Source of the DNA: Streptomyces sp. HB132
GTDB taxonomy: Bacteria > Actinomycetota > Actinomycetes > Streptomycetales > Streptomycetaceae
DNA length: 64,000 bases
Assembly: GCF_016909575.1 (NCBI RefSeq)
Contig: NZ_JAFBGA010000021.1
Coordinates: 1 to 64,000, forward strand
Direction of reading: 5' to 3'
Shown here: piece after piece, positions 937 to 40,109 of the stretch
How the letters are laid out: the number at the start of each line of letters is the position of its first letter
Numbering within the stretch: position 1 is the stretch's first letter
Position numbers and translations under genes: made by a program
The notes under the pieces: model-generated
What the model was told of the DNA's origin: nothing
Seen by the model: the letters and a program-made list of their open reading frames with translations, nothing else
Database searches by the model: none

Positions 937-984
937 TGGCCGCCGCGACCACGCGTGTGTGTCACTCCAAGAAAGGTTCTGAGC

Positions 985-9918: not shown

Positions 9919-9974
9919 CCCCCTCCGTCCGCACCACGCCCGCAATCCGGCACGCCAGCCTGTGAAGGACAGTA

Positions 9975-13306: not shown

Positions 13307-14904
13307 GACCCGTACTGAACCGCTTCCTGTCCCTGTCCGGCTCCGGCCGCCAGCAGGTGGTGGCCCTGATGCTGTTCCTCGTCCTGGGCGCGGTCACCCA
13401 GGGCATCGCCTTCGCCCTCGTCGTGCCGATCACCGACGGCGTCTTCGCCCGGAGCGGTCCGGTGCCCTGGGGGTGGATCGCCACCCTGGTGGCCATCGCC
13501 GCCGTACAAGCGGTCCTGCACCACCGGAGCGTGCCGATGGGCAACCGGCTGGGCGCCGACCTGGTCACCACTCTGCACCGGGCCGTCGCCGAGCGGGCGT
13601 CGGTGCTGCCCGCCAGGTCCCTCGGCCCGGCCCACGCCGACCGGATCGCCTCACTGGACGGCACGGCGGTGGTCGTGCTGATGGGTCTGCCCGCGCACGT
13701 CCTGCGCCCGCTGGTGGCCGCGGTCGCCACCCCGCTGACGGTGATCCTGATCACGGCGTTCGTCGAGATCCGCTTCGCGGCGGGGCTGGCTGTCGGTCTG
13801 GTCCTGATGGTGGCGGCCTCCTTCGGCGTGGTCCGGCTGCTCACCCGGACCGAGGAGACCGACAGCGCCGAGTGGCTCCGGCGGGTCTTCACACAGCCCG
13901 CCGCCGCGGAGCACGCCCCCGAGGCGGAGAACCGTGCTCCGTCGGCGCTCCCGCACGCGGTGGGGGAGGTGCTGCTGTGGCGCGTCGTCGAGATCGCGCT
14001 CTGCCCCGCCGTCGCGGCCTGCGTGGTGCTGACGACCACGGACGATCTGTCGCCCGGGACGGCCGTCGCCCTCGTCGTACTGGCGGTGCTGACCTTCCGC
14101 CCGGTCATGGAGGCGGCGCTGCTGAGCAGCACCGTCATGAAGTCCCGTGGGGTGCTGACCACGATCGGCAGACTGCTCGACGCCGGTGACGCCGAACCTC
14201 CCCGAGCCGACTGGCCGGAACACGGCGACATCGAGTTCGACGACGTCGGTCTGCTCGTCGGGCGGACGACGGTGCTCGCCGGAGTCTCGTTCCGGCTCCC
14301 CGCGGGCACCACCACGGTGATCACCGGCACTCCTGACGGCAACCGCCTGGTACTGGGCGACCTCCTGGCCGGAGACGTACGTCCGACCTCGGGGCAGGTG
14401 CGGATCGGAGGGGTGGACGTCGGCCTGATCGCCGCTTCCGAGACCGCCCGGCGCCTTTGCAGGGTCTCCCCGGCGGACCCCGCTCTCACCCGGGAGGAGG
14501 CGGCCCGGTTCCTCGGCTCCCCCGAGGGATCCGGGCTGCCGGATCTGCCGGGCGTGGCCGACGCGCTGGACCGACTGCGCGCAACGGTGTCCGCCCCCTC
14601 CGAGGACGTCGGCCCGCCGCTGTCCGGCCCCGACCTGTGGCGGCTCGCCCTGCTGCGCGCGGTCTCGGCCGACCCTGCCGCAGCCGTGGTGGACGCGACC
14701 GCCGGCGAGGACCTGTTCACCGGCGACCCGGAACTGGCGGAGCTGCTGTCGGCCTTCACCCGTGGCCGCACCTGCTGGCTGGTCCTCGGCGCCGGGCACA
14801 CACCACCGCCCTGCGGAGCGTCCCTGACCGTGGACGGCTCCCACGTCTCCAGCGGCACACAGCACGGCATCACCTGGAAAGAAACCGAGATGCGGAGGAA
14901 TTGA
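13303..14904 (+). CDS. Second ABC transporter-like half protein with degenerate ATPase motifs
   Basis: A 533-residue protein starting at the ATGA overlap with the previous gene. The N-terminal ~300 residues contain several hydrophobic spans of an ABC exporter fold. The C-terminal part follows the order of an ATP-binding domain (IEFDDVGLLVG, then VSFRLPAGTTTVITG), but the Walker A position reads GTPDGNRL with no Lys-Ser/Thr. The signature region reads LSGPDLWRLALLRA, and the Walker B acidic pair is reduced to VVDATAGED. Both partners of the pair are therefore altered at ATPase residues, which is unusual because heterodimeric exporters normally keep at least one functional site. The 98-residue gene follows two bases after the stop. 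Confidence 0.78.
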   Translation: MRPVLNRFLSLSGSGRQQVVALMLFLVLGAVTQGIAFALVVPITDGVFARSGPVPWGWIATLVAIAAVQAVLHHRSVPMGNRLGADLVTTLHRAVAERASVLPARSLGPAHADRIASLDGTAVVVLMGLPAHVLRPLVAAVATPLTVILITAFVEIRFAAGLAVGLVLMVAASFGVVRLLTRTEETDSAEWLRRVFTQPAAAEHAPEAENRAPSALPHAVGEVLLWRVVEIALCPAVAACVVLTTTDDLSPGTAVALVVLAVLTFRPVMEAALLSSTVMKSRGVLTTIGRLLDAGDAEPPRADWPEHGDIEFDDVGLLVGRTTVLAGVSFRLPAGTTTVITGTPDGNRLVLGDLLAGDVRPTSGQVRIGGVDVGLIAASETARRLCRVSPADPALTREEAARFLGSPEGSGLPDLPGVADALDRLRATVSAPSEDVGPPLSGPDLWRLALLRAVSADPAAAVVDATAGEDLFTGDPELAELLSAFTRGRTCWLVLGAGHTPPPCGASLTVDGSHVSSGTQHGITWKETEMRRN

Positions 14905-14906
14905 CG

Positions 14907-15203
14907 ATGACCACGGAACAGGTTGCGGGAGTGGACGTGCTGGTCCACGGGCTCCGCCGGTACGTCGAGTCGCTGCAGGTATCGGCCGGTGACTCGGTGG
15001 CGGTGCGCAGACTGATGAACGACCTCGACCGGCTGGAGCTGGACCTCGGGGACCTACGCCTCCCGCAGGACGCCGTTCCGCCGCAGTCGCCCGTGGAAAG
15101 GGGCGTCGAGGTGATCAGGGTTCCGGACGCCGTGGGCGATCCCGGGCAGTGGCACGGCGTGGACGACGAGGGCATCGGAGGTCACCGACGTCACCACGCG
15201 TGA
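14907..15203 (+). CDS. Small protein of unknown function, 98 aa
   Basis: The ATG is preceded by a strong GGAGGAA ribosome site (14894-14900) and lies two bases after the ABC-like gene stop, so it belongs to the same operon. The sequence begins MTTEQVAGVDVLVHG, continues with an amphipathic, leucine- and aspartate-rich helix (about residues 10-50, MNDLDRLELDLGDL) and ends in a polar tail rich in Gly, Asp and His. There is no signal peptide, membrane span or carrier-protein serine motif. I do not recognise the family. Its position suggests an accessory partner of the ABC-like pair or the PKS. A strong hairpin follows at 15221-15243. Confidence 0.6.
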   Translation: MTTEQVAGVDVLVHGLRRYVESLQVSAGDSVAVRRLMNDLDRLELDLGDLRLPQDAVPPQSPVERGVEVIRVPDAVGDPGQWHGVDDEGIGGHRRHHA

Positions 15204-15220
15204 CCCCCCACAGCTGCGCG

Positions 15221-15243
15221 GACGGGGCCCCTCGGGCCCCGTC
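15221..15243 (+). terminator. Hairpin terminator after the left-arm operon
   Basis: A perfect 10-bp stem GACGGGGCCC / GGGCCCCGTC closes a three-base CTC loop. It lies 18 bases after the stop of the 98-residue gene and 55 bases before the type II thioesterase. There is no T-run, as is common in Streptomyces. It probably ends or weakens transcription from the PKS operon. Confidence 0.55.
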
Positions 15244-15297
15244 GCCGGCCTGCTCACCTCCGCACCCGCACACCTCCGACGGACGGATCACACACCC

Positions 15298-16065
15298 ATG
15301 ACCTCACCCACGTCTACGCAGGACCCGTGGATCCGGGCCTTCCACCCGGCTCCGCAGGCATCCCGCCGGCTGATCTGCTTCCCGCACGCGGGCGGCTCGG
15401 CCAGCTTCTACTTCCCCGTCTCGGCGGCGCTGGCCCCCGACGTGGACGTGCTTGCCGTGCAGTATCCGGGCAGGCAGGACCGCCGCCACGAGCCGGGCAT
15501 CGTCGACATCGGCGTCATGGCGGACCAGGCGGCCGAGGCGCTGCTCCCGTACGCGGACCGGAGCCCGCTCACCCTCTTCGGTCACAGCATGGGAGCATGC
15601 GTGGCCTTCGAGGTGGCCCGCCGCCTGGAACAGGCCGGCCGGGGCCCGGACCACGTCTTCGCCTCCGGCCGCCGTGCTCCCTCCAGCTACCGCGACGAGA
15701 CCGTGCACCAGCGCGACGACGACGGCATCGTGGCCGAGATGCGGGCGATGAGCGGCACCGATGCGCGGGTCCTGGGCGACGAGGAACTGCTGCGCATGGT
15801 GCTGCCCGCCATCCGCAGCGACTACCGGGCGGTCGAGACCTACCTTGCCGACCCCGGCGCCGCGGTGACCTGCCCTGTCACCGCCCTGACCGGGGACGCC
15901 GACCCCTGGACCACGCACGAGGAGGCCCGCGCGTGGGAGAAGCACACGACGGGCCCGTTCGAACTCAAGGTCTTCTCCGGAGGCCACTTCTACCTCAGCA
16001 GCCGCGCCCGCGAGGTCATGGCTGTCCTGGAGGACCATTTCGCCTCCGGAGGAGCACCCCGGTGA
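15298..16065 (+). CDS. Type II thioesterase (editing), left arm
   Basis: A 255-residue alpha/beta hydrolase of the TEII family that clears misprimed or stalled acyl groups from carrier proteins. It has the FPHAGG oxyanion region near the N-terminus, the nucleophile GHSMG with Ser97, and the C-terminal catalytic histidine in GGHFYLS. It has no signal peptide. It is transcribed rightward and converges on the megasynthase gene, whose stop lies 33 bases beyond. The ribosome site is weak (GACGGA upstream). It could serve the PKS on its left or the NRPS-PKS on its right. Confidence 0.93.
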   Translation: MTSPTSTQDPWIRAFHPAPQASRRLICFPHAGGSASFYFPVSAALAPDVDVLAVQYPGRQDRRHEPGIVDIGVMADQAAEALLPYADRSPLTLFGHSMGACVAFEVARRLEQAGRGPDHVFASGRRAPSSYRDETVHQRDDDGIVAEMRAMSGTDARVLGDEELLRMVLPAIRSDYRAVETYLADPGAAVTCPVTALTGDADPWTTHEEARAWEKHTTGPFELKVFSGGHFYLSSRAREVMAVLEDHFASGGAPR

Positions 16066-16088: not shown

Positions 16089-16116
16089 GTCCCACGCGTC
16101 AGGGGACGCGCGGGAC
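16089..16116. terminator. Hairpin between convergent thioesterase and megasynthase genes
   Basis: GTCCCACGCGTC pairs with GACGCGCGGGAC around an AGGG loop with one mismatch. It overlaps the last codons of the megasynthase and lies just past the type II thioesterase, where both transcripts converge, so it may terminate in both directions. Confidence 0.45.
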
Positions 16117-19100
16117 GGGCAGCGGGCGGTGCGGGGCCTGTGTGACGTGGTGGAGGTGCTCGCCGAAGGCCAGGGCCCAGGACCTGATGGTGGACCCGTC
16201 GAAGAGATCCGTCGAGTACTCGAAGGTGACGGCGATCGTGTCGGGGCCGGGCACCAGGACCACGTACAGCTCGTTGCGGGCCACACCCGATGTCGGGAGG
16301 TCGCGTACCGACGCCGAGATCGACCGCATGTCCAGGGTGGACGGCGGGGTGGTGACCACGGTGAAGAGCACGGTCGGGAAGAGCGAGGCGCCCGTCTCCG
16401 GTGAGACCAGCTCCACCACGTCGGTCAGGGGCAGTTCCTGGTGGTCGAGCGCGGTGAAGAGCGTCGAGCCGAGCTGCTTCACGAGGTCGGCGAACGTGGC
16501 GGCCTCGCCCAGCCGGGCACGCAACAGGACCGCGTCACCCAGGAGCCCGACCACGCCGGACCGGTCGCGGCGGGTGCGGTTCGCGCTGGACGCGGCCAGC
16601 ACCACGTCCGTGAGCCCGCCGCACAGTCCGGACGCCCAGCTCGCGAACGCCGCGGCCAGGACGGTGTAGGGCGTCGTCCCCAGGCGGGTCGCCGTCTCCG
16701 CGAGCCGCCCGGGGACGTCCCCGTCGATGGCCCATGTGTGCAGCGCGCCCCTGCCGGAGAGCTTCGCGGGGCGCGGCCGGTCGTACGGCAACGGCAACCG
16801 CAGCGGTACGCCGTCGAGTTCGGTACGCCAGAACCGGCTCAGTTCCGCCCTGCGCTCTGCGCCCAGCTCGTTCTCCATACGGGCGTAGTCGGTGAACTGT
16901 ATTTCAGGCAGGGGGAGTCGACTGTCGACGCCTTGGTGCCGGGCGTCGTGGAGCTCCTGCAGTTCGTGCCAGATGACGCCCATGGACCAGCCGTCGCAGA
17001 CGGCGTGGTGGAACACGGTGACCAGCACCCAGCGATCCCGCCCGAGCCGAGCGAGCCGGAAGCGGAAGAGCGGCGCGCTGTCCATCGCCAGCGGGCGCGT
17101 GGCCTCGTCCCGGCACCACCGCTCGACCGCGTCGGCGTCGTCGCCGTGCGCGGTCAGGTCGTCCACCGGCAGGTCCACGGGCACCTGGGACAGCACCTCG
17201 ACCAGGTACCGCCCGTCGCGGTGCACGGCTCTGCTCCGCAGCGCGTGATGGCGACCGACCAGGTCCTCCAGAGCACCCGCCAGGTGCCGGGGGTCGAGCT
17301 CGCCGTTCAGGTCGATGCGGTGAGCGACGTTGTAGACCCCGGGGTCGGAGTGCTCGTGGTGCCGGTGCCACAGTCTGCGCAGCGTGGAGGGCATCGGCGC
17401 GGTGTCCACCACCGGCCCGGCGGGAGCGGGCCGCTCACCGCGGCCCGCGACGCCACGGATCGTGGGGTCGAGGAAGAACTCGGCCATGGACAGCTCGATG
17501 CCCAGCTGGTCCGCCGTGCGGTTGAGGAGCCTGATCGCGCTGAGGGAGTGACCGCCGAGCTCGAAGAACGACTCGGTGACCGGGATCTGGCGCGAACCGA
17601 GCTCGTCGCACCACAGCTCGTGCAGGGACTTCTCCAGCCTGGTCGAGGGCTGCGCGTCCGTGCCCCGTGCCGTGCCGTCCGGCTCAGGTTCGGGCAGCCG
17701 GCCCCGGTCCAGCTTCCCCGCGGTGTTCACCGGGAGCCGGTCCAGGCACACCCAGCGGCGCGGCACCAGATGGTCGGGGAGCTCCGCGGACAGCGCGTCT
17801 CGCAGCCCGCGCAGGTCCGCCGCCGGAGCGGCAGGGACCACGTAGGCGACCAGCTCCTTCTCGCCGTGCTGGTCGTGGCGGGACACGACGGCAGCGTCCC
17901 GTACCCCGGGTAGGGCGCTCAACGCCCCCTGCACCTCGGCCGGTTCCACCCGATGGCCCCGGATCTTCACCTGATCGTCCGTACGGCCGCAGTACTGCAG
18001 GGAGCCGTCCGTGCGCCAGCGTCCGAGGTCCCCCGTCCGGTACGACAGAGAACCCGCGCCGTCCGGCAGGAAGGCGCCGGCCGTCTCGGCCGGGCGGGCG
18101 TGGTAGCCGTGCGCGACCGGCGCGCCTCCCACGTGGATCTCGCCGACCGCACCCGGAAGCACCTCGTGCCCCGCACCGTCCAGCAGGACGATCCGCGCTC
18201 CCGGCACCGGCGTGCCGATCGGCGGCCACTCCTCGCCACCGGGGTCGACCCGGTGCGAGGTGACGATGACGGAGGTCTCCGTCGGCCCGTACTGGTTGTA
18301 CAGCGCGCACCGGGTGTGTGCCGCGAGGAAGCGGCGGAAGGAGTCGGTGAGCTGAAGCGCCTCACCTGCGGAGAACAGCTCGCGCAGCGAGGGCAGTTCG
18401 GGCCGCGTCTCCATCAGATACCTGAGCGGCGTGGAGGGCATGAACATCCGCTGCACCTCGTGACGGCGCACCGCCTCCGCGACCGCCACGGGGTCGTGCC
18501 GCACCTCGTCGTCGATCAGCACCAGCGTCGCCCCGGAGCACAGCGTCGTGAAGATCTCCTGCACGCTGACGTCGAACGAGGGCGATGTCCACTGCAGGGT
18601 GCGGAGCCCGACGTGGGCGTCCAGGTGGCCCCGTACGAGGTTGACCGGACCGCGGTGCGGCACGACGACGCCCTTGGAACGGCCGGTCGAGCCCGAGGTG
18701 TAGATGCAGTACGCGGGGTCCTCGGGCCTCGCTCCGTCGGCAGGGGGTTCTGCCTCGGGGGCGCCGTCGACCTCGTCCAGGAGCCTCACCGGCAGCCCTG
18801 GCCGGAGCCCGGGATGACGCGCGAGGACGGCGGCTGAGGTCAGCAGCAGGACGGGCGCGCCGTCGTCGAGGAGCGCTGCGAGCCGTGGCGAGGGCATGGA
18901 AGGGTCGAGCGGCAGATACGCGGCGCCGCTCCTGAACACCCCCAGCACGGCGGCGACCAGCTCCGGGCCGCGCGGCAGCAGCAGAGCCACACGTTCTCCG
19001 CGCACGGCTCCACGGGCGCGCAGGTCGTGGGCGAGAGTGTTCGCGCGGACGTCCAGTTCCCGGTACCGGACGCTCTCCGCACCGTGCACCAGGGCGACGG

Positions 19101-22100
19101 CGTCGGGTGTCCTGTGCACCTGCTGCTCGAACAGCCCGTGCAGGGTGTCCTCGACCGCGGGTGTCGGCTCCTCCAGACGTCCCAGCCTCGCGAGGGACGT
19201 ACGGTCGGCCGCGGTCACCGCGGTCAGATCGCGCAGCGGCGCGCCGGGAGCGTCGAGAGCGCGGCGCAACACCTGCTCCACGTGGTGCGTGAAGCGACGC
19301 ACCGTGGCCTCGTCGAACAGCGCGGTGTCGTACTCGACCATGAACCGCACCCCGTCACGGTGGTGCGTGAAGTAGACGCTCAGGTCGAAGGGGGCGCGCG
19401 CGCTCGGTACGTCGAGCAGCGTCGCCGCCAGCCGGGGCGGGTCGAACGTCACCTCGCCCTCGTTCTCGTACTCCACCATCACCTGGAAGAGCGGGTTGCG
19501 TCCCGGGTCCCGGCGTGGGTTGAGCTCCCCGACCAGCTCGTCGAAGGGGACACCGGTGTGCTCGTACGCGGCTGTGCTGCTGGCGCGCACCCGGTGCAGC
19601 AGCGTCGGGAAGTCCGGGTCGCCGGCCAGATCCAGACGCAGGGGAACGGTGTCGAGGAACAGGCCGATGTGGTGCTCCGCGCCGGCGGGCCGGGCGGCGA
19701 CAGCGGTGCCGAGGACCACGTCGTGCTGCCCGCTCAACCGGCCGAGCACCGCCGCGACGGCACCGGTGAGTGCCATGAACGGAGTTGCCCGGTGGCCGGC
19801 CGCGAAAGCCTTCAGCGCGCCGGTGAGTTCGGCGTCCAGCTCGTGGGTCAGGCTCGCGCCCGCCCCCGACCTGACAGGGGGACGGGGCCGGTCCGTGGGC
19901 AGGTCGAGCTCAGGGGCCCCGGCGAGCTCACGCCGCCAGAAGCCGAGGGACTCGGCGTGGTCCTCCGCCGTGCGGGCCGGGGCCACCTCCGGCAGGGGCG
20001 GCGGCCCGGGGGCCCCGGGTTCGACGGCGCGGTAGCAGGCGGCCAGGTCTCGGACGAGCACCGCCGTGGAGGCCGAGTCGAAGACGATGTGGTGTGCCAG
20101 CAGGAAGAGCAGATGCCGCTCCTCGGACAGCCGCAGCAGCCTCGCCGTCACCAGCGGCCCCTCGCGCAGGCCGAGTACCCGGCGCCCCTCCGTCCCGAGC
20201 GTGGCGCGCAGCGCCTCGTCCTCCGACGCCCCTGTGTGGTCGTCGACCGGACAGTCGATCCGCACCCGGTCACGTATCTCCTGGTACGGCACCCCGCCGG
20301 AGTCGAGGAACGTCGTCCGAAGCGCCGGATGCCTGTCGGCGACCTGCTGGAGGGCCCGCTGCAGTGCGGGTACGTTCAGCGGACCGTCCAGGCGGATCGC
20401 CTTGGGCTCGTGGTACATGCTGGTCCTCGGATGCAGCTGCTCCAGGAACCAGATGCGGCGCTGCGCCGGTGACAACGGCACCCGCTTCGGATCGGGCGCC
20501 GTCTGCTCCGGAGCGCCGAGCTGCTCGCGGCGGCGGACCCGGTCGAGCAACGGCAGAGCATCCAGGACCCGCTCCGTCGGCACGCCGAAGTCCACGAAAC
20601 AGGCGATCTCGTCCGTGCCGGCGTCCACCAGACGGCGTACGGTCTCGGCCGCCGTGTGCTCGTCGCCGATCAGGGCGCGCGTGGCGCAGTAGCGTTCGTA
20701 CGCCCTCTCCAGGAGGAACTCGACGTCCTCCTCGGGAGTGTTGTCGAGGTCCGCCGTGAAGCCCAGGCTGTTGGTGACCTGACCGAAGAGGGACAGGGAG
20801 GAACGCAGGTACGACACGAACGGCCGGTACGCCTCCGCCCGTGCGCGGTCCGCGTCCTCACCGAGGTACGTGTGCACGAGCACCACCACCCGGCCCGCAG
20901 CCGGGTCGAGCCCGTGCTCGGCACGGGTACGCCGGTACAACGCGATGTTCTCCGCCAGTTGCTCCACGGTCTGCGTCATCAGGTTGGTGACCACGCCCAG
21001 GCCCTCGACCGCCGCCCGGCGGTAGCTGTCCGGGTTGCTCACCACCGCTACGTACAGGGGGATCTCCCGCTGCAGGGGGCGGGGGTGGAGGCTGATCTCG
21101 ACGGGCTCGCCGTCACCGGCGGTCGTCGGCACGGACTGCCCCGACCAGAGCTGCCGCACGGTCTCCAACTGCTCGTACATCAGTTCGCGATGCCGGCCGA
21201 AGTGCTGCGGGGCGAGCGAGAAGTCGGTGGCGTGCCAGCCGCCGGCGACGCACAGACCCGCCCGGCCGCCGGAGATGTTGTCGACGACCGACCACTCCTC
21301 GGCGACCCGCACCGGATGGTGGAGCGGGAGGACGACCGAGCCCGCGTGCAGCCGGATGCGGCTGGTGTGGGCCGCGAGCGCGGCGGCCAGCACGGAGGGG
21401 TTGGGGAAGAGCGCGCCGAAGGAGTTGAAATGGCGCTCCGGGAGCCACAGGGCGTGGAATCCGTTCTCGTCCGCGTACTTCGAAGCCGCCATGATCAGCG
21501 CGTACTTGTCACGGTCGGCGTCCTGGGGATAGTCGCCGAAGAAGTACAGGCTGAAATCGCACCCGGCGGCGGGGGCGGGCAAGGGCTGCCCCTGCTCGCG
21601 AACCGGCTCGGGGGGCTGCGACGGGAGGGGCGGGCTGTGGGCCTGGGTGTGGGCCCGGACCGGCGTCGGCGTCGGGGCTGCCGTCGGCACGGGGGCCGGG
21701 GCCCGGACCGGAGTCGGCGCGGGGCTCGGTGCCGGTATCGGGGGAGCGGCGGGCGGCGCGGACGCGAGTACGTCCAGTTGGCGGGACATCACTCCGGTGA
21801 CCTGGTCGACGAGATGCTCGGCCAGTTTCAGCTGCTGCCCCAGCAGTTCGTGAAGCCCGGAGGGCGCTTCGGCAGCCGGTTCCGGTGCTGCCACGGGCGC
21901 CGGTACGGCCTCCGGTGCCGGTGCCGGTGCCGGTGCCGGTGTCTGCGCCGGCACCTGGTCCGGCTGCCGCTCGTCCGCCTCCCGGCGTGGTTCCCGGCGC
22001 GGCTCCCCAGTCACCCCCACCGAACCGGCGGCCGTCCCCTTCCCCAGCTCCGCCAGACGTACGGCCAGCGCGCGCGGGGTGTCCGCCGAGGCGAACAGCT

Positions 22101-25100
22101 CCCGTACCGGGACACGTACGCCGTACCGCTGCTCGAGCTCCGCCGTCATGCCCATCAGGGAGAGCGAGTCCGCGCCGAGCTCGAAGAACGAGGAGTCCGG
22201 TGCGACGTCGGCAGCCGGGCGGCCCAGTTTCTCGGAGGTCAGCCGCCTCACCTCGGCGAGCAGTTCGTCCGGCACGGTGCGCTCCTTCACAGGGGTGGCC
22301 GACGTTTCCGCCGGGTGGTGCGAAGCCTGAGCCGGCGAGCCGGTCAGCGGCGCCACGGGGCGCCTGCGCAGGGGGTGCCCCGGCAGGGGCACCCTGTTCC
22401 CGCCGGCGTTGACCGCGCTCCACTCCAGGTCGGCCCCCCTGCGGTACAGCGCGGCCAGTGACATGAGGAGCCCGTGCGTCTGGTCGGTACCCCGGGGGGC
22501 CGAGCCCTGCCCTGCGAGCCAGCGGCTCTCCGGTACGCAGTGCCGGCCGAGGCCGGTGAGGGTGTCCCCGGCACCGATCTCCAGGAAGTCCAGACACCCC
22601 TGCCCCGTCGCCGCGGCCATGGCCAGATCGAAGCGGACCGGCTGCCGCGCCTGGCGGCCCAGGTAGTCGGCGTCGAGGATCCAGCCCACCGGGCGCACCC
22701 GGCCGTCGGCGGTGGTCACCAGCGGCGTACGCAGCGGACCGTACGTCACCCGCTCGGCCCGCGACCGGAAGTCGCGCAACGCGGGCTCGACCGCGGCGGA
22801 GTGGAACGCCCTGTCGACGGGCAACGTCCGCCACCGCAGGCCCTCCCCGTCCAGCAGCCGCGCCGCCTCCGCGAGAGCGTCCGGCGGACCGGAGATCACC
22901 TGGGACCGCGGTCCGTTGAACGCCGCGAGTTCGGCCCCGGCGGCCCGCGCGATCCGCTCCGTGTCCTCCGGCCGGGCGCGGACAGCGAGCATGCCGCCCG
23001 GAGGGCAGGCGGTGTGCATCAGCCGCCCGCGCCACGCAGTGAGCCGCAGTCCGTCGTCGAGAGTGACGGCGCCGCCCGCGTAGAGGGCCGCGTACTCGCC
23101 GACGCTGTGGCTGAGCAGCAGCGCGGGGCGCACGCCGACGGCACGCCACACGTCGGTGAGCGCGGCCTGGTGGGCGAACAGGGCGGCCTGGGCCGTCTCG
23201 GTGGGCCAGACGCCGTCGTCGGCGGACTCGTCGACCAGCAGGGGGAGCAGGGTGCCGCCGAACTCGTCGGCGTAGACCTCCTCGCACCGTTCCAGTGTCC
23301 GCCGGGCGACGGGATGCGCGGCGTAGAGGCCCCCGGCCATGCCCCGGCGTCCGCTGCCCTGCCCGGAGAAGGCGAAGGCGAGCGGTCCGAGCGGACCGGA
23401 CGGTGCGGGCCGGGGCTCGTCCAGGGCGTCCGCGAGCTCCGCGGCGGTCCTGCCGACCGCCGCGTCCCGTGCCGCCCGGTGCGGCCTGCCGAGCGCCAAG
23501 GTGGCCGCCACGTCCGCCGCCGCCGGACCCGGTTGCTGCCGCAGCCGGTCGCGGAGCAGACCGGTGTATTCCTCCAGGGCCTGGGTGTCGCGGGCCGACA
23601 CCGGCACGAGGACGGGAAGCCCGGACGTGTGGGCCGCGGGTCGCACGGGCGCCTCCTCCAGTACCACATGGGCATTGGTGCCGCCGACCCCCAGCGCGCT
23701 GACCCCGGCCCGGCGCGGCACGCCGTCCTGCGCCGGCCAGGGCCGCAGCTCGGTGCCGAGGACCAGCGGGCCGCCCTCCAGGCGCAGTTCGGGGTTGGGC
23801 CGCGTCAGATGGAGGGTGGGGACCAGCGTGCGGTGCCTGAGCATGAGGACCGTCTTGAGCAGACCGGCCATCCCGGCACAGCTGTCGAGGTGTCCGATGC
23901 TCGGCTTCACCGACCCGACGGTGCAGAACCCCGTACGCCGCGTACCCTCCCCGAGTGCCCTGCCGAGCGCCTCCAGTTCCACCGGATCGCCGAGCGGGGT
24001 GCCCGTCCCGTGCGCCTCCACGTACGAGATCGAGTCGGCGGGTACGGCCGCTCTGCGCAGAGCCTCCCGCACGACCTCCACCTGGCCCGCGACGCCCGGC
24101 GCGCTGAACCCGACCTTGGCCGCCCCGTCGTTGTTGACGGCGGAGCCCAGGATCACCGCGTGCACGGTGTCGCCGTCGGCGAGTGCCCGGTCGAGACGCT
24201 TGAGCAGCACGGCCGCCACGCCGTTGCCGCCCACGGTGCCGTCGGCCTCCGCGTCGAAGGCGCGGCAGCGTCCGGTGGGCGACAGGATGGAGCCGGGGTG
24301 GCTGCGGTAGCCAGTCTCCTGGGGGAGGTGCACGGCAGCGGCTCCCGCGAGCGCCAGGTCCGCGTCGCCGGTGAGCAGGGCCTGTACGGCGAGGTGCGTG
24401 GCGACCAGCGAGGTGGAGCACGCGGTCTGCACGCCGATGGCGGGCCCGGTGAGCCCGAGCCGGTAGGCGACACGGGAGGCGAGGAAGTCGGGCTGCAGCC
24501 CGATGGCTGACTGCATGCCGTCAGCCGGGTCGTCCGGAACACCCGTCGCAGGCGGCTGCTGATGGTCGTAGAGGTTCATGCCGGTCCCGGCGAACACCCC
24601 CACCCTGGTCCCCTGTCCGGTCACCGCGTAACCGCCGTCCTCGAGGGCCTCGTGGCAGCACTCCAGGAACAGCCGGTGCGCGGGGTGGGTGAGCCCGGCC
24701 TCCTTGGGGCTCATCCCGAAGAAGTCCCCGTCGAACGCGTCGACACCGTCGATGACCCCCGCGACCGGCACCATGCCGGGCGCGCGCCGCTGCTCCGGGG
24801 AGAGGCCGGCCGACGCGAGCTCCTCCTCGCCGAAGACCCGGACGCTGTCCACGCCGTCGCGCAGATTGGCCCAGTACCGCTCCACCGAGTCCGCGCCGGG
24901 GAAGCGCAGCGACAGACCGATGACCGCGACGCGCTGGTCGGCCGTGTCCTTCGAGGCGGTGCCCAGGGGCTGCGGCTGTTCCCCGGGGGTGGCGGCCGCC
25001 AGATGCGAGGCCAGCGCCATGGCCGTCGGATGTTCGAAGAACGCGGCCTGGGCGATCGGCGTCGCGAGCCGCTGCTCCAGACGCGATCGCAGGCGGGTGA

Positions 25101-26946
25101 GGAGAAGCGAGTTCAGCCCCAGCTCGTAGAACCGTTCGTGCACGTCCACCGCGTGCCCCAGCAGGGCGGCGATCTCCTCCCTCACCACCTGTGCCACTTC
25201 GCCGGAGCGGAGGTCGTCCGGCGGGGCCGAGTGGGCAGGGGGACCACCCGCGACGAGCCGCTGCCGAAGTTCGGCGCGGCGTACCTTCCCCGCGGGGGTC
25301 CTCGGGAAGTCGTCGTGCGGTACGGGCAGGACATGGGAGACGGTCAGACGGAGCCGGGAGAACAGCGCCGCCTTCACCTCCCTCACGATCCGCGCGTCCT
25401 CGTCGGCCGAGCGGCTGACGAAGAACACGGCCAGCCGCTCGGTGCCGCTGTCCGGGTCCGGGACGCCGCAGGCGGCCACTTCCCCCTGTCTGACGCCTGC
25501 GACGGCGGTCGCCGCCTCCTCGACCTCGTGGCAGTAGACGTTGTGCCCGTTGAGAATGATCAGGTCCTTGCGCCGCCCGGTGATCACGACCTGTCCGGCG
25601 TCGAGGAAGGCCAGGTCGCCCGTGTCCAGCCAGTCCCGGCCGGCCGGGTACGCCTCGGCGTCCGCCTCAGGATTGTTCACGTAACCAGGGGTGAGGCGGG
25701 TGGGCGTGTGCACCTGCAGCCGGCCGATCCTGCCCGCGGGTGTCGGCTCGCCGCGATCGTCCACGACGCGCAGGGTGACGCCGTGCACCGGCGAGCCGGC
25801 CGCGACGAAGGTGACGCAGTCGTCCTCCGGGGTCCGGGCGTCGGCCCTTACCAGATCGCCGCCCAGACTGCTCTTCAGCAGGCGGTGCACGGTGCCGGGG
25901 CGGTCCAGTCGTCCGTGCGTGACGGCCGTGACCGTCTCGGCCATCCCCCACACCGGCACGATGTGCCCCTCCCGCACCCCCGACGCGGCGGTTGCGTCGA
26001 GGAAGCGGCGCAGCACCGGCAGTACGATCTGCTCGCCGCCGCACAGCAGCGACTTGAGGCCGCCCAGGTCGCGTACGCGGTGCGGCTGCTCGGCGAGCGC
26101 GTCGGCTGTCAGCCCGTAGGCGAACGTCGGGGCCCAGCTGTGTTGCGCCCCGTGCTCCTCGATGAGGTCGAGCCAGCGCAACGGCTCGGCCAGCACACGC
26201 TCGGTCGGCGCGTGGACGTTGGTACAGCCCACGAATACCGCCAGCAGGTGGTACAGGAGGAACGCGCCGCTGTGATCGACCGGCAACCAGTTCACCATGG
26301 TGTCGTCCGGCCGCACGTCCATGATCCGCCGGGAGCTCGCGGCGAAGTCCGCCAGGCCGGCGTGGGTGAGCCGCGCCGCCTTGGGGACGCCCGTGCTGCC
26401 GGAGGACAGCATCAACAGCGCGACGTCGGACCCGGCCGGCTCCACGTGGGCGTCCGCGGGCTCAGCGTCCAGGCAGTCCCGCGCGACCGCGGCCCGCAAC
26501 TCGGGGGCCGCCGTGGCCAGGGCCTTGACCCCGGCGGCGTCACTGAGCACCAACGGTTGGTCCAGCACCGCACAGGCGTGCAGCAGGCGTTCGTACGCGG
26601 GCGAGCCCGGCACGGCGCGGTCCGCGAGGGCCGCGGGCAGAGCACCACCCAGCAGACAGGCCCAGAAGGCGGGGAAGAACTCACTCAGCGGCAGCCCGCA
26701 CAGAATCACCGGGTCACCGGGGCGCAGCCCACGCTCCCGCAGTCCGGCCAGCATCCGGGCGGCCTGCGACAGCAGTTCGCGATACGGCAGGGTGGTCGTG
26801 GAACCGTCCGGGGCGACGGCGACGACGGCTGCCCCGTCGTCCGACTCCGCGGCACGCAGGAGTGCCTGCACGGCATCGCGCGGGTCGCTCTCCGTGTACT
26901 CCGGCTCAGGACCCCGGCAGAGAGTCTGCCCCTGCACGTGTTCCAT
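16099..26946 (-). CDS. Hybrid PKS-NRPS megasynthase: AL-ACP-KS-AT-ACP-LLM-C-A-PCP-C
   Basis: This 3615-residue protein starts at the ATG at 26946 (AAGGGG six bases upstream); an in-frame GTG at 26967 is weaker. Domains: acyl-AMP ligase about 30-560 (SSGSTGVPK); ACP with Ser613; KS about 668-1090 with Cys843; AT with Ser1281 in SHSVGE and AFH near 1380, predicting malonyl-CoA; ACP with Ser1594; a Pro/Ala-rich linker about 1650-1790; a luciferase-like flavin monooxygenase about 1796-2145 of the type embedded in secondary-metabolite synthases; a C domain with HHIVFDS from 2285; an A domain about 2600-3080; a PCP with Ser3134; and a final C domain with HHAVCDG near 3312. The A-domain pocket, aligned by eye, reads roughly D-V-Q-T-F-A-Q-V-I-K, closest to proline codes. 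There is no KR, DH or TE. It follows the MFS gene with a short overlap. The terminal C domain must accept an aminoacyl-PCP from another protein, probably from the right-arm operon. Confidence 0.95.
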   Translation of the reverse strand: MEHVQGQTLCRGPEPEYTESDPRDAVQALLRAAESDDGAAVVAVAPDGSTTTLPYRELLSQAARMLAGLRERGLRPGDPVILCGLPLSEFFPAFWACLLGGALPAALADRAVPGSPAYERLLHACAVLDQPLVLSDAAGVKALATAAPELRAAVARDCLDAEPADAHVEPAGSDVALLMLSSGSTGVPKAARLTHAGLADFAASSRRIMDVRPDDTMVNWLPVDHSGAFLLYHLLAVFVGCTNVHAPTERVLAEPLRWLDLIEEHGAQHSWAPTFAYGLTADALAEQPHRVRDLGGLKSLLCGGEQIVLPVLRRFLDATAASGVREGHIVPVWGMAETVTAVTHGRLDRPGTVHRLLKSSLGGDLVRADARTPEDDCVTFVAAGSPVHGVTLRVVDDRGEPTPAGRIGRLQVHTPTRLTPGYVNNPEADAEAYPAGRDWLDTGDLAFLDAGQVVITGRRKDLIILNGHNVYCHEVEEAATAVAGVRQGEVAACGVPDPDSGTERLAVFFVSRSADEDARIVREVKAALFSRLRLTVSHVLPVPHDDFPRTPAGKVRRAELRQRLVAGGPPAHSAPPDDLRSGEVAQVVREEIAALLGHAVDVHERFYELGLNSLLLTRLRSRLEQRLATPIAQAAFFEHPTAMALASHLAAATPGEQPQPLGTASKDTADQRVAVIGLSLRFPGADSVERYWANLRDGVDSVRVFGEEELASAGLSPEQRRAPGMVPVAGVIDGVDAFDGDFFGMSPKEAGLTHPAHRLFLECCHEALEDGGYAVTGQGTRVGVFAGTGMNLYDHQQPPATGVPDDPADGMQSAIGLQPDFLASRVAYRLGLTGPAIGVQTACSTSLVATHLAVQALLTGDADLALAGAAAVHLPQETGYRSHPGSILSPTGRCRAFDAEADGTVGGNGVAAVLLKRLDRALADGDTVHAVILGSAVNNDGAAKVGFSAPGVAGQVEVVREALRRAAVPADSISYVEAHGTGTPLGDPVELEALGRALGEGTRRTGFCTVGSVKPSIGHLDSCAGMAGLLKTVLMLRHRTLVPTLHLTRPNPELRLEGGPLVLGTELRPWPAQDGVPRRAGVSALGVGGTNAHVVLEEAPVRPAAHTSGLPVLVPVSARDTQALEEYTGLLRDRLRQQPGPAAADVAATLALGRPHRAARDAAVGRTAAELADALDEPRPAPSGPLGPLAFAFSGQGSGRRGMAGGLYAAHPVARRTLERCEEVYADEFGGTLLPLLVDESADDGVWPTETAQAALFAHQAALTDVWRAVGVRPALLLSHSVGEYAALYAGGAVTLDDGLRLTAWRGRLMHTACPPGGMLAVRARPEDTERIARAAGAELAAFNGPRSQVISGPPDALAEAARLLDGEGLRWRTLPVDRAFHSAAVEPALRDFRSRAERVTYGPLRTPLVTTADGRVRPVGWILDADYLGRQARQPVRFDLAMAAATGQGCLDFLEIGAGDTLTGLGRHCVPESRWLAGQGSAPRGTDQTHGLLMSLAALYRRGADLEWSAVNAGGNRVPLPGHPLRRRPVAPLTGSPAQASHHPAETSATPVKERTVPDELLAEVRRLTSEKLGRPAADVAPDSSFFELGADSLSLMGMTAELEQRYGVRVPVRELFASADTPRALAVRLAELGKGTAAGSVGVTGEPRREPRREADERQPDQVPAQTPAPAPAPAPEAVPAPVAAPEPAAEAPSGLHELLGQQLKLAEHLVDQVTGVMSRQLDVLASAPPAAPPIPAPSPAPTPVRAPAPVPTAAPTPTPVRAHTQAHSPPLPSQPPEPVREQGQPLPAPAAGCDFSLYFFGDYPQDADRDKYALIMAASKYADENGFHALWLPERHFNSFGALFPNPSVLAAALAAHTSRIRLHAGSVVLPLHHPVRVAEEWSVVDNISGGRAGLCVAGGWHATDFSLAPQHFGRHRELMYEQLETVRQLWSGQSVPTTAGDGEPVEISLHPRPLQREIPLYVAVVSNPDSYRRAAVEGLGVVTNLMTQTVEQLAENIALYRRTRAEHGLDPAAGRVVVLVHTYLGEDADRARAEAYRPFVSYLRSSLSLFGQVTNSLGFTADLDNTPEEDVEFLLERAYERYCATRALIGDEHTAAETVRRLVDAGTDEIACFVDFGVPTERVLDALPLLDRVRRREQLGAPEQTAPDPKRVPLSPAQRRIWFLEQLHPRTSMYHEPKAIRLDGPLNVPALQRALQQVADRHPALRTTFLDSGGVPYQEIRDRVRIDCPVDDHTGASEDEALRATLGTEGRRVLGLREGPLVTARLLRLSEERHLLFLLAHHIVFDSASTAVLVRDLAACYRAVEPGAPGPPPLPEVAPARTAEDHAESLGFWRRELAGAPELDLPTDRPRPPVRSGAGASLTHELDAELTGALKAFAAGHRATPFMALTGAVAAVLGRLSGQHDVVLGTAVAARPAGAEHHIGLFLDTVPLRLDLAGDPDFPTLLHRVRASSTAAYEHTGVPFDELVGELNPRRDPGRNPLFQVMVEYENEGEVTFDPPRLAATLLDVPSARAPFDLSVYFTHHRDGVRFMVEYDTALFDEATVRRFTHHVEQVLRRALDAPGAPLRDLTAVTAADRTSLARLGRLEEPTPAVEDTLHGLFEQQVHRTPDAVALVHGAESVRYRELDVRANTLAHDLRARGAVRGERVALLLPRGPELVAAVLGVFRSGAAYLPLDPSMPSPRLAALLDDGAPVLLLTSAAVLARHPGLRPGLPVRLLDEVDGAPEAEPPADGARPEDPAYCIYTSGSTGRSKGVVVPHRGPVNLVRGHLDAHVGLRTLQWTSPSFDVSVQEIFTTLCSGATLVLIDDEVRHDPVAVAEAVRRHEVQRMFMPSTPLRYLMETRPELPSLRELFSAGEALQLTDSFRRFLAAHTRCALYNQYGPTETSVIVTSHRVDPGGEEWPPIGTPVPGARIVLLDGAGHEVLPGAVGEIHVGGAPVAHGYHARPAETAGAFLPDGAGSLSYRTGDLGRWRTDGSLQYCGRTDDQVKIRGHRVEPAEVQGALSALPGVRDAAVVSRHDQHGEKELVAYVVPAAPAADLRGLRDALSAELPDHLVPRRWVCLDRLPVNTAGKLDRGRLPEPEPDGTARGTDAQPSTRLEKSLHELWCDELGSRQIPVTESFFELGGHSLSAIRLLNRTADQLGIELSMAEFFLDPTIRGVAGRGERPAPAGPVVDTAPMPSTLRRLWHRHHEHSDPGVYNVAHRIDLNGELDPRHLAGALEDLVGRHHALRSRAVHRDGRYLVEVLSQVPVDLPVDDLTAHGDDADAVERWCRDEATRPLAMDSAPLFRFRLARLGRDRWVLVTVFHHAVCDGWSMGVIWHELQELHDARHQGVDSRLPLPEIQFTDYARMENELGAERRAELSRFWRTELDGVPLRLPLPYDRPRPAKLSGRGALHTWAIDGDVPGRLAETATRLGTTPYTVLAAAFASWASGLCGGLTDVVLAASSANRTRRDRSGVVGLLGDAVLLRARLGEAATFADLVKQLGSTLFTALDHQELPLTDVVELVSPETGASLFPTVLFTVVTTPPSTLDMRSISASVRDLPTSGVARNELYVVLVPGPDTIAVTFEYSTDLFDGSTIRSWALAFGEHLHHVTQAPHRPLPVPRVP

Positions 26947-28192
26947 GCGTATCCCCTTCTTTTCCACTCGTGGACGAGCGCGACCGGGCGCGCCCGGTGA
27001 CGAAGAACAGCAGAACCAGTGCTCCGCACACGGCCGCCCCGTGGAACACGCCGACGACCGTCAGGGCGGGCAGTGCTTCGAGAGCTGCCGCGGCGAGTAC
27101 GGTGCCCAGCGCGAACCCGGCCGTCTCCGCCGTGGCGGACAGCCCGAACAGCCTGGTGCGCTGCCGGTCGGGGGCCGCCTGGAGGCGTGCGGTGTAGACC
27201 GTCTCGGCCCAGCCGTCGGCGAATCCCGCGCACGCTGCGGCCGCCATGAGAGCCGCGGCTGGCAGGCCGGTGAACGCGGCCACGAAGGAGACCGACATGC
27301 CCAACGTGCACAGGGCGAAAGCCCGTTCACCCCACGACGAGGCCCCCCGCGTGCGCCGGATCACCATTTGGGCGGCGATGGTGCCCACCGCCCACGCCGC
27401 CCAGAACCGGGTCATGAAGAGCGCCGGGTCGGACGGTGCGGAGGCGTTCGCGACCACGGGCAGTGCGACATTGTGCGAGGAGGACGCGAGGGCGTCGATC
27501 CCTCTGAGCAGGATCATGCCGAGCAGCAGCGCGGGAAGACCGGCCATGCCGTGCCACACGCGCGGACGCCCCGGGCGGACAGCGCCCTTCCCCCAGCCGT
27601 CCTCCTCCGGTACGGCCTCCTCCTCGCCGTCCGTACGCGGGCGCAGGACGAGCAGCGCACCCGCCGACACCGCGAAGCTCGCGGCGTTGACGGTGAACGC
27701 GGTGCCGTAGCCGCCCAACGCGATGACGGGAGCGGCGGAGGCGAAGCCCAGGACCGTGGCGATCGACCGTGCCGTGACCAGCAGTCCGGTCGCCCTGGTA
27801 CGGGACTCCTGGCCGACCATCGCGGGAACCGCGCTGCGCAGGGCGACGGTGAAGTACGTGTTCCCCGCGCCCATGACGACGACCGTGCCGCACAGCAGCC
27901 ACATCGGCGTGCGGGCCGCGCACAGGGCCAGAACGGACAGGACCAGGCACTGGGCGAGGTCCGTGCACACCATCGTCCTCAGCCGGGTCGTCCTGGCCGC
28001 CAGAGCCGCGGCGGTGAGTCCCGCGACGAAGCCGGAGAGCAGGCGCAGCGCCATCACCACGCCTACCCCGAAGGCCGTGCCGGTGACCTGGTACGAGAAC
28101 AGGCTCATCGCGATCAGGTTCAGGAAGTTGCCGTAGCCGGAGACCGCGTACGCGCAGACGAGAGCACGGAACCGCCTGTCCACACCCCCCAC
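26906..28192 (-). CDS. MFS transporter, probable product exporter
   Basis: A 428-residue integral membrane protein with about twelve hydrophobic spans split by a charged, Glu-rich central loop (around residues 190-225), as in 12-helix major facilitator proteins. The start is a GTG at 28192 with GAGGGG just upstream. The gene lies 99 bp after the aminotransferase stop and its 3' end overlaps the megasynthase start by about 40 bp, so the three genes form one unit read leftward. Position next to the synthase suggests export of, or self-resistance to, the product. The substrate cannot be read from sequence. Confidence 0.88.
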   Translation of the reverse strand: MGGVDRRFRALVCAYAVSGYGNFLNLIAMSLFSYQVTGTAFGVGVVMALRLLSGFVAGLTAAALAARTTRLRTMVCTDLAQCLVLSVLALCAARTPMWLLCGTVVVMGAGNTYFTVALRSAVPAMVGQESRTRATGLLVTARSIATVLGFASAAPVIALGGYGTAFTVNAASFAVSAGALLVLRPRTDGEEEAVPEEDGWGKGAVRPGRPRVWHGMAGLPALLLGMILLRGIDALASSSHNVALPVVANASAPSDPALFMTRFWAAWAVGTIAAQMVIRRTRGASSWGERAFALCTLGMSVSFVAAFTGLPAAALMAAAACAGFADGWAETVYTARLQAAPDRQRTRLFGLSATAETAGFALGTVLAAAALEALPALTVVGVFHGAAVCGALVLLFFVTGRARSRSSTSGKEGDTHGTRAGADSLPGS

Positions 28193-28291: not shown

Positions 28292-29572
28292 TCACGTGTC
28301 TGCCGAAACCGCTGAAGCACGCATCTCCCTCAGTACGTCGGCCACATGACGGATGCCCTCGGAGAGCACCTTCTCCTCGGTGCTGAGACTGATGCGGAAG
28401 CAGCGGGTCGCGTGGCCGTCCAGGCCGGGGGAGGAGAGCGGGTCCACGAAGAAGTGCCGTCCCGGCACGACGAACACGCGTCTCTCCTTCAGCCTGCGGT
28501 AGAGGTCGAGATCGTCGAACCACGGGTGGTCCACCCACAGCCAGCAGAACATGCCGCCGACGCCCGAGTGCATCCGCCAGTCCATGTCCGGCGGCATCGC
28601 CTCCGCCAGCAGGCCCGCGGCGAAGCGCCGCTTCTCCCGGTAGTAGGGCGTGATCGCCTCGCGGGTGACGCGGTCCAGCCGGCCGTCCCCCAGGACGCGC
28701 GCAAGGGCGGCCTGTGGCAGTTGCGGGGCGTGCAGGACGGAGTTGGACATGAACGACGCCAGCGCGTCGATGTACTTCGGCGGGCCGATCGCGAACCCGA
28801 CGCGTTCTCCGGGAAGCCCGGCCTTGGACGCCGAGAAGCAGTTGATCAGGTGGTCGTGCAGAACAGGCTCGGTGTGCACCTCGGCGATCCTGGGGAACGG
28901 GGAGCCGTACGCCTGGTCCAGGAGAAGCGGAACGTCCCGTTCGGCGGCCAGTGCGGTCAGCGCGTCCAGCTCGGCCCGGTCCAGGGCGCGCCCGGTCGGG
29001 TTGCCGGGGCTGGAGACCAGCATCATCCCGATGTCCGGCTGCCGCCTGAGAGCGTCGATGTCCAGTGCGTACCGGAAGCTGTGTTCGCCCTGCCGCTCTA
29101 TCAGGGGCGGTACTCCCACGATGCCCCCGTCGTGCATGCACAGGCCCTGGTAGCCGGTGTAGTCGGGAACCATGGGCAGGACCATCTTCCTGTCGCCCAG
29201 CCTGCCCGGCCCCGCGAAGAGGGCGGCCGCGGCGAAGCACAGCATCTGGCTGCCGGGCCCGATCACGACGTTCTGCGGGCCGAGCTGCCAGCCGTACGTC
29301 CGGTTGAAGTACTCCACGACGGCCCCGATCAGGACCTGGCTGCCGCGGGAAGGGCCGTAGTGGCAGCCGGCCCGCTCGAAGTCCTCGGCCAGTGAGTCCG
29401 TCAGGGCGGCCCGCCACATCTCGCCGGCGTCCGCGATGGTGGCCGGATTGCCCACGCTGAGGTTGAGCCACTCGCCGGCCGACGCGTCCGCCGTGCTGGC
29501 GGCCACATCGTCCATGATGCTGCGGAGGCCGGAGACGCCGGCCATCTTGGTGCCACTCAGTGACAACTCCAT
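28292..29572 (-). CDS. PLP aminotransferase, valine-pyruvate (AvtA-like) family
   Basis: A 426-residue fold-type I aminotransferase. The ATG at 29572 follows a clear AGGAGA ribosome site; longer in-frame versions start in low-complexity sequence. Features shared with E. coli AvtA include SGLRSIMDD near the N-terminus, GNPATI, a GPGSQM cofactor loop, SSPGNPTG, DQAYGSPFP and the PLP lysine in SASKAGLPG (Lys250). AvtA transfers amino groups between valine or alanine and 2-oxo acids. In this cluster it may supply a nonstandard amino acid or aminate an acyl precursor for the megasynthase, with which it is co-transcribed. It is a separate protein, not a fused aminotransferase domain as in several lipopeptide synthases. 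Confidence 0.9.
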   Translation of the reverse strand: MELSLSGTKMAGVSGLRSIMDDVAASTADASAGEWLNLSVGNPATIADAGEMWRAALTDSLAEDFERAGCHYGPSRGSQVLIGAVVEYFNRTYGWQLGPQNVVIGPGSQMLCFAAAALFAGPGRLGDRKMVLPMVPDYTGYQGLCMHDGGIVGVPPLIERQGEHSFRYALDIDALRRQPDIGMMLVSSPGNPTGRALDRAELDALTALAAERDVPLLLDQAYGSPFPRIAEVHTEPVLHDHLINCFSASKAGLPGERVGFAIGPPKYIDALASFMSNSVLHAPQLPQAALARVLGDGRLDRVTREAITPYYREKRRFAAGLLAEAMPPDMDWRMHSGVGGMFCWLWVDHPWFDDLDLYRRLKERRVFVVPGRHFFVDPLSSPGLDGHATRCFRISLSTEEKVLSEGIRHVADVLREMRASAVSADT

Positions 29573-31009: not shown

Positions 31010-31016
31010 GCGGCGC

Positions 31017-32474: not shown

Positions 32475-32622
32475 GGGATGCGGCCGGAACGCCGTGGACG
32501 CACTGCCGTGAGCGGTTCCACCGGCGCCGCCGCACCCGCACCGGGCGCCCCGGGCCGCCGTACGGGCGCACATGGCGCCGTCCGGCATCCGGGGACACCA
32601 ACAAGCCTATGGAGGAAACGAG

Positions 32623-40105: not shown

Positions 40106-40109
40106 ACGG

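Follow-up and report, generated by a model that had tools for sequence, protein, structure and literature searches.

What becomes of a β-keto intermediate when an embedded oxygenase follows directly on a polyketide extension that lacks reductive domains? This question is raised by a megasynthase gene on the reverse strand (16099..26946) of a 64,000-nucleotide stretch of DNA from Streptomyces sp. HB132 (contig NZ_JAFBGA010000021.1, positions 1 to 64,000; hereafter the window). The encoded protein of 3615 aa joins an acyl-AMP ligase (AL), carrier domains (T), a ketosynthase (KS), an acyltransferase (AT), a luciferase-like monooxygenase (LLM) of the flavin mononucleotide (FMN) type, condensation domains (C), and an adenylation domain (A) in the order AL-T-KS-AT-T-LLM-C-A-T-C. 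Judged from the sequences of the window and its relatives, the synthase and an adjacent major facilitator superfamily (MFS) exporter constitute a two-gene, self-contained cassette that occurs in many actinobacteria. An initial annotation of the same DNA had offered α-hydroxylation, oxygen insertion, and C–C cleavage as possible outcomes of the oxygenase reaction, and α-hydroxylation is the best supported of the three by analogy with PuwE, the nearest solved relative.

Domain Organization of the Megasynthase

An uninterrupted frame with a GTG start spans 16099-26967 on the reverse strand and would encode 3622 aa, and the ATG at 26946, which is preceded by AAGGGG and matches the end coordinate of the initial annotation, is the likelier start. 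The residue numbers used below (1867, 1906, 1909, and 1961) are counted from the GTG at 26967. Pfam searches of the synthase identified two AMP-binding, two Condensation, and three PP-binding domains, the N- and C-terminal halves of the KS, the AT, and a Bac_luciferase domain, with whole-protein E-values of 4.5e-53 for the oxygenase, 1.5e-51 for the AT, 5.2e-68 for the N-terminal half of the KS, and at most 1.2e-120 for the A and C domains. No ketoreductase (KR), dehydratase (DH), enoylreductase (ER), methyltransferase, or thioesterase (TE) domain was found in the synthase by Pfam at E ≤ 0.001, nor was a class III aminotransferase domain (PF00202). The initially annotated order without KR, DH, and ER is thus upheld by one intact frame, the Pfam domains, and the motifs. 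Because the E-values are low and the order recurs in dozens of species, the domain array is not due to chance, and the synthase is a real and intact protein whose parts are ordinary and whose whole is unusual.

All domains are encoded on the reverse strand. The AL (25255..26868), a putative starter-loading ligase of the fatty acyl-AMP ligase (FAAL)-like kind, is under the cut-off of every family model listed (the best 25 of 101 in NCBIfam), although the top models, including PRK07768 and PRK09192, are fatty acyl ligases; its best matches in the PDB are 6ulx/6ulw and McyG (4r0m), ahead of the FAALs. It is followed by the first carrier (24964..25167, limits approximate; FYELGLNSL), the KS (23806..24936), the AT (22558..23376), and the second carrier (22063..22254; FFELGADSL), the last three delimited by Pfam and the second carrier being the expected seat of the LLM substrate. 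The active-site motifs were read as intact in the KS (ACSTS, EAHGTGT, and GHLDSCAG) and in the AT (SHSVG and AFH), and we take the AT motifs, including AFH, to be those of a malonyl-type enzyme. A Pro/Ala-rich linker (21568..22062) with a helix-like island (GLHELLGQQLKLAEHLVDQVTGVMSRQLDVLA) leads to the LLM (20533..21555). The first C (19192..20484, Pfam; HHIVFDS), the A domain (17713..19131, Pfam; code DVQFFAQVIK), and the third carrier, a peptidyl carrier protein (17428..17637, limits approximate; FFELGGHSL), come next, and the serine is present in all three carrier motifs. The terminal C (16123..17412, limits approximate; HHAVCDG), recognized as the second Condensation domain by Pfam and by phmmer matches to solved C domains, is the proposed release domain.

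Distribution of the Two-Gene Cassette

A genome collection that comprises 84,980 species by its own description was scanned, and relatives of the LLM were found in 556 stretches. Of these, the 80 best loci were kept: 7 carry an aminotransferase (AMT) before the LLM, 5 are cut off before that point, and 68 are AMT-less (six of the 68 are shorter than 18 kb, which limits the view of their flanks). The exact order of the synthase is found in 54 of the 68 AMT-less relatives, another six lack only a recognized first T, and eight are partial or split; their genera include Streptomyces, Saccharothrix, Amycolatopsis, Kribbella, and Micromonospora. The idea that the synthase is a peculiarity of this window was rejected on these grounds, and the initial annotation, which had not recognized this order from elsewhere, is further corrected by puwainaphycin biosynthesis, in which similar domains occur together with an aminotransferase (PMC4219810, in excerpt). 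Within the genus of the window, an LLM at E ≤ 1e-120 is encoded in 56 of 392 genomes, a count that includes its own genome and mixes cassettes with and without AMT. Similar helix-like islands are visible in the linkers of 11 of the 14 AMT-less relatives displayed out of 68; located just before the LLM, the island could be a dimerization or docking element.

The MFS exporter (26906..28192, reverse strand; Pfam MFS_1, 2.9e-20) is encoded directly upstream, and the end of its gene overlaps the ATG start of the synthase by 41 nt, an overlap that is identical in S. aurantiacus (NZ_CP114282). An MFS gene directly upstream on the same strand is present in 59 of the 68 AMT-less relatives, and four others (L053, L062, L078, and L111) also have such a frame, which escaped the count because of the way the synthase frame is measured or because the synthase frame is broken. 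An upstream MFS was not seen in the other five of the 68 (L074, L084, L087, L115, and L071, the last of which begins inside the synthase). Apart from the MFS, frames that shadow its gene, and gene order shared by closely related species, clustering of the flanking frames revealed no conserved family. An AvtA-like gene (28292-29680) was considered as a further member of the cassette and rejected, being matched in 1 of the 80 loci and belonging to the valine-pyruvate transaminase family. In the DNA covered, only four of the 68 AMT-less loci have additional assembly-line genes downstream (two of the four on the same strand), a scarcity suggesting that the cassette probably completes its product unaided. 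The S. aurantiacus cassette, whose LLM is 84% identical to that of the window, resides on a linear plasmid (L127, NZ_CP114282), the sole plasmid case seen, and no further annotated nonribosomal peptide synthetase (NRPS) or polyketide synthase (PKS) gene was found in the 23.4 kb of the plasmid around it. It adjoins phosphonate genes (aepX, aepY, and a transketolase gene), near a transposase.

The Oxygenase Domain

The LLM matches TIGR04020, the MupA/Atu3671 family, with 468.9 bits against a cut-off of 244.45 over positions 1-341 of 341 (NCBIfam). Its best solved relative is the oxygenase domain of PuwE (6ket; 404 bits, E 4.7e-120), with which it shares 49.6% identity (170 of 343 positions). The fold predicted from the single sequence was poor (mean pLDDT, the predicted local distance difference test score, of 34.3), and was replaced by an AlphaFold model that drew on 31 sequences of the family and reached a mean pLDDT of 83.6. 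The top fold match of this model is again 6ket, with a template modelling (TM) score of 0.87 by query and 0.90 by target, and bacterial luciferases come next; 4uwm, a type II Baeyer-Villiger enzyme, ranks 21st (TM 0.71/0.71, 16% identity). Across the aligned sequences, 86 LLM positions reach a conservation of at least 97% in the AMT-less rows (n = 69, window included) as well as in the AMT-bearing rows (n = 16, PuwE included). A loss of flavin-binding residues, which the initial annotation had envisaged as evidence against an active oxygenase, is not apparent at the level of these conserved positions, and the predicted fold resembles that of 6ket. Residue 1909 is G in the window and in two other AMT-less relatives and S in 61 of the 69 AMT-less rows; it aligns opposite residue 107 of luciferase α, which we take to be near the flavin.

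A KS-AT-T module without reductive domains yields a β-ketoacyl thioester. Because the extension appears to be of the malonyl type and is accompanied by no reductive domain, the substrate available to the LLM would be a β-ketoacyl carrier thioester, in agreement with the initial annotation, which had placed the oxygenase directly after such an unreduced extension. Of the outcomes then offered, α-hydroxylation is favored by the PuwE oxygenase domain, the closest relative of solved structure, and oxygen insertion and cleavage are less supported. A mass shift alone would not discriminate between them, since α-hydroxylation and Baeyer-Villiger insertion each add 16 Da.

The Aminotransferase-Bearing Sister Cassette

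The same genome carries a sister cassette on contig C15 (L119, G000:C15:130000-149900, 3310-15367), with the layout MFS / KS-AT-T / AMT-LLM-C-A-T-C, in which a class III aminotransferase precedes the LLM. This layout is found in all eight loci examined (L119-L126), which were picked from a longer list. Like the cassette of the window, the sister cassette has an MFS neighbor, an LLM (58-62% identical), and a terminal C, and no TE was seen in it; unlike that cassette, it possesses the AMT, has no AL in its synthase proteins, carries the PKS part on a separate protein, and shows another A code (DALILGVVLK and kin). The terminal C of the sister cassette shares 31-36% identity with that of the window and has the HHxxxDG motif in 8 of 8 loci. 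If the sister product were a 3-amino-2-hydroxy acyl unit linked to a hydrophobic residue, it would be similar to aminopeptidase inhibitors, to which bestatin and amastatin belong.

The gap between the T domain and the LLM measures 38-347 aa in the AMT-less relatives versus 612-732 aa in the five AMT-bearing loci with both ends. In a careful LLM tree of 50 rows, chosen by hand from the 105 rows of a first quick tree, the AMT-less label requires three changes, and three are forced by the starred branches. Besides one large group on a weakly supported branch (88/73), the AMT-less rows comprise Actinokineospora and a group of Micromonosporaceae. On this tree, the AMT was lost or gained more than once, and since its status changed at least three times, LLM domains work both with and without it. 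Three sites loosely track the AMT. At 1906, C predominates in the AMT-less rows (62 of 69) and G in the AMT-bearing rows (15 of 16); the corresponding residues are H (51 of 69) and F (11 of 16) at 1961, and R (54 of 69) and E (13 of 16) at 1867. The five AMT-less rows that nest within AMT rows (L100, L101, L106, L110, and L113) lack C1906 and all have P1909, which occurs in 0 of 16 AMT rows; the exchange of Ser for Pro at 1909 is a possible adaptation of the oxygenase to β-keto substrates. P1909 also occurs in L116, of unassigned AMT status. Against this reading stand the P1909 of L012, one of 15 distant TIGR04020 rows, the S1909 mostly retained by the large AMT-less group, and the G1909 of the window.

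Proposed Pathway and Alternatives

We presume that the code positions of the A domain are correctly placed and that the reference codes for proline start with DVQ and have His at 322. The code DVQFFAQVIK shares this start, which is present in 51 of the 67 AMT-less rows counted (window included), and the residue activated may provisionally be called proline-like, that is, a cyclic imino acid such as proline or close kin. The proline-like residue of the initial annotation, favored by the DVQ start and disfavored by Gln322 in place of His, is accordingly reasonable but unproven. The first C has HHxxxDS in 58 of the 68 AMT-less rows counted and the terminal C has HH..DG in 61 of the 65 AMT-less terminal C domains counted, the window being included in both. 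Release by the terminal C is proposed because neither the synthase nor the MFS protein contains a TE and because nearly all relatives have a competent-looking terminal C. In the window, the synthase gene does have a neighbor that encodes a type II thioesterase (15298-16065), but in the flanks covered of the AMT-less relatives no such gene was found, save one TE-like match in L115.

In the proposed pathway, the AL would load a carboxylic acid onto the first carrier, and the KS and AT would add one malonyl unit, leaving the β-keto group untouched. With reduced FMN and O2, the LLM may then hydroxylate the acidic α-carbon of the carrier-bound β-ketoacyl chain, and the first C could join the resulting α-hydroxy-β-ketoacyl group to proline or a closely related imino acid. 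Release of the product would fall to the terminal C, in the simplest version through attack of the α-hydroxyl on the aminoacyl thioester to form a bicyclic morpholinedione; alternatively, this domain may use a free amine. The MFS protein would export the product. Attack by the α-hydroxyl is the preferred version of release, although unproven, and since the sister cassette keeps the MFS, LLM-C-A-T, and the terminal C (8 of 8), this hydroxyl would be the one LLM-made nucleophile common to both cassettes. We infer the malonyl unit, the proline-like residue, and release by a C domain from motifs only and the α-hydroxylation from PuwE, and by these analogies the pathway as a whole appears rather probable.

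Several observations weigh against this pathway. The AL scores leave a "fatty" starter unsupported, and among solved structures the ligase resembles that of McyG. Gln322 stands where proline codes have His, the A codes of distant relatives are quite different, and the first C, with HHxxxDS, lacks the canonical glycine. The changes at sites 1906, 1961, and 1909 could mean that the chemistry of AMT-less LLM domains is somewhat different. Furthermore, the activity of PuwE was assigned from the structure of the product and not by assay (PMC4219810, in excerpt), and the LLM domains CalD and MndB are said to shorten chains through α-hydroxylation and Baeyer-Villiger oxidation (PMC8739492, in excerpt).

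The latter precedent also bears on the idea that the LLM is type II Baeyer-Villiger-like and inserts oxygen beside the β-ketone, giving an acyloxyacetyl ester or cleaving the chain before condensation. LLM-fold enzymes of this type exist (4uwm), CalD and MndB are said to shorten chains (PMC8739492, in excerpt), and the synthase has no reductive domain to remove the ketone; the PuwE oxygenase, however, is by far the closest solved relative at 49-50% identity, against 16% for 4uwm, and in puwainaphycin the keto carbon becomes the β-amino carbon beside the α-hydroxyl with the C–C bond kept (PMC4219810, in excerpt), so that we judge such a reaction unlikely here. That the LLM is inactive as an oxygenase in this lineage, with a plain β-ketoacyl-prolyl compound as product, could be read from G1909, a residue near the expected flavin site that is S in 61 of the 69 AMT-less rows, yet the conservation of 86 positions (at least 97%) extends over AMT-less and AMT-bearing rows alike, the model folds well, and G1909 recurs in two other AMT-less relatives, which makes inactivity scarcely credible.

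The remaining alternatives concern partners outside the synthase. The A-T-C, A-T, and T-TE genes about 8-15 kb from the synthase start, together with the ability of a terminal C that lacks a cognate A domain to act for a partner protein, might suggest that the synthase is a subunit of a larger line and that its terminal C hands the chain to the NRPS genes at 35187-41920. This arrangement is quite improbable, as those genes lie on the opposite strand and possess a C and a TE themselves, downstream assembly-line genes are present in only 4 of 68 relatives (2 on the same strand), and in S. aurantiacus the 23.4 kb of plasmid around the cassette contain no other annotated NRPS or PKS gene. A trans-acting aminotransferase, for example the product of the AvtA-like gene at 28292-29680, could instead lead to a 3-amino-2-hydroxy acyl peptide of the puwainaphycin kind; indeed, this pyridoxal phosphate-dependent transaminase is encoded close upstream of the MFS gene in the same orientation, and L037, a near relative, has it too. 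We regard it as a very improbable participant: it fits the valine-pyruvate transaminase family best (403.4 bits against a cut-off of 402) and its Pfam class is I/II and not III, it was matched in only 1 of 80 relative loci (L037) with the flanks covered, and no class III aminotransferase match was found in the DNA covered for the 68 AMT-less loci.

Returning to α-hydroxylation, a bolder and rather doubtful extension is that the cassette makes an undescribed class of α-hydroxy-β-ketoacyl imino acids, bicyclic morpholinediones formed through α-hydroxyl attack, and that the LLM acts on the β-ketoacyl chain before the AMT does in puwainaphycin. The latter order is suggested by the AMT status, which changed at least three times while the LLM stayed, and in microginin the oxygenase would presumably likewise precede the aminotransferase. 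FK506 carries a pipecolyl α-ketoamide; if this extension holds, the α-oxidized acyl-imino acid would resemble that moiety, and in a bolder sub-case an immunophilin-type target is conceivable. The paired cassettes with and without AMT in one genome make the order of oxygenation and transamination in AMT-oxygenase lines directly testable and also allow tests of how bare terminal C domains take part in release. The presence of the cassette in many genera suggests a product that is probably of common use, and a complete route of loading, extension, oxidation, amino acid incorporation, release, and export in two co-directional overlapping genes would be an easy target for heterologous expression.

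Other Genes in the Window

The region 10-16065 contains the end of a modular type I PKS, cut at position 1, with KR-ACP (acyl carrier protein) at the contig edge and then KS-AT-DH-KR-ACP-KS-AT-ACP-TE, together with a NodU-type carbamoyltransferase and the type II thioesterase. Rfam matches to the ASpks antisense RNA at 2026-2100 and 7258-7332 (reverse strand) lie inside PKS coding sequence and are probably conserved coding sequence rather than small RNA. A separate NRPS set at 30789-41920 comprises a stand-alone A-like ligase, a lone C, a P450, A-T-C, A-T, a 257-aa protein, and T-TE. Dependence of the cassette on the other biosynthetic genes of the window was rejected by means of two genomes, G138 and G198, which encode a carbamoyltransferase of 72-75% identity. 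In the two stretches of 40 kb inspected, one from each genome, only one P450 (29%) and one TE (36%) match the genes or domains of the window beyond the carbamoyltransferase (E ≤ 1e-20, half length), and both genomes were searched, yet lie outside the 56 genomes with an LLM at E ≤ 1e-120.

Comparison with Known Systems

Among the matches listed from open-licence papers, none deals with this domain order, with TIGR04020 or embedded LLM domains in synthetases, or with an actinobacterial product, and no characterized cluster with the same order, which the initial annotation had considered, was found there; a search of papers for PDB codes likewise gave no match. The available passages of the photoxenobactin and chalkophomycin papers do not mention luciferase-like enzymes, and the term "alpha-hydroxy-beta-keto" appears in one paper listed, where the excerpt concerns the product of a thiamine enzyme in carbazole biosynthesis (PMC10100901).

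The fabrubactin pathway of Agrobacterium contains FbnE, a flavin monooxygenase proposed to make α-hydroxycarboxylates (PMC12971057, in excerpt), and the FAAL FbnG (PMC11837247, in excerpt); unlike the cassette, it is a siderophore pathway, and FbnE is likened to the LLM by description only. LLM domains in PKS/NRPS lines are also described for palmerolide, calyculin, and mandelalide, the palmerolide line being of the trans-AT type (PMC8739492, in excerpt). The synthase of the window, in contrast to palmerolide, has an integral AT. Modules of trans-AT PKSs carry no AT, and calyculin and mandelalide also come from trans-AT lines. The iturin/mycosubtilin type (MycA, ItuA, and BamA) also combines a starter ligase, in its case an FAAL, with PKS and NRPS modules in one protein (PMC4219810, in excerpt), but with an aminotransferase in place of the LLM, a domain that the window synthase does not have.

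The puwainaphycin synthetase of Cylindrospermum (PuwC/PuwD loading, PuwB, and PuwE) resembles the synthase in an acyl chain loaded by a ligase (an FAAL, the putative kind of the AL) and, in PuwE, in a PKS module that only elongates, followed by an oxygenase domain and an NRPS module; the AmT and Ox domains of PuwE have been assigned the 3-amino-2-hydroxy acyl unit (PMC4219810, in excerpt). In puwainaphycin biosynthesis, however, a class III aminotransferase accompanies the oxygenase, the reducing PKS PuwB precedes PuwE, loading is encoded on separate genes, and further NRPSs follow, whereas the line of the window has no AMT, gathers all domains in one protein, and ends in a bare C. The synthase is thus a puwainaphycin/iturin-type acyl starter machine minus the aminotransferase, and what is new is its self-contained two-gene packing, its own exporter, and its bare terminal C.

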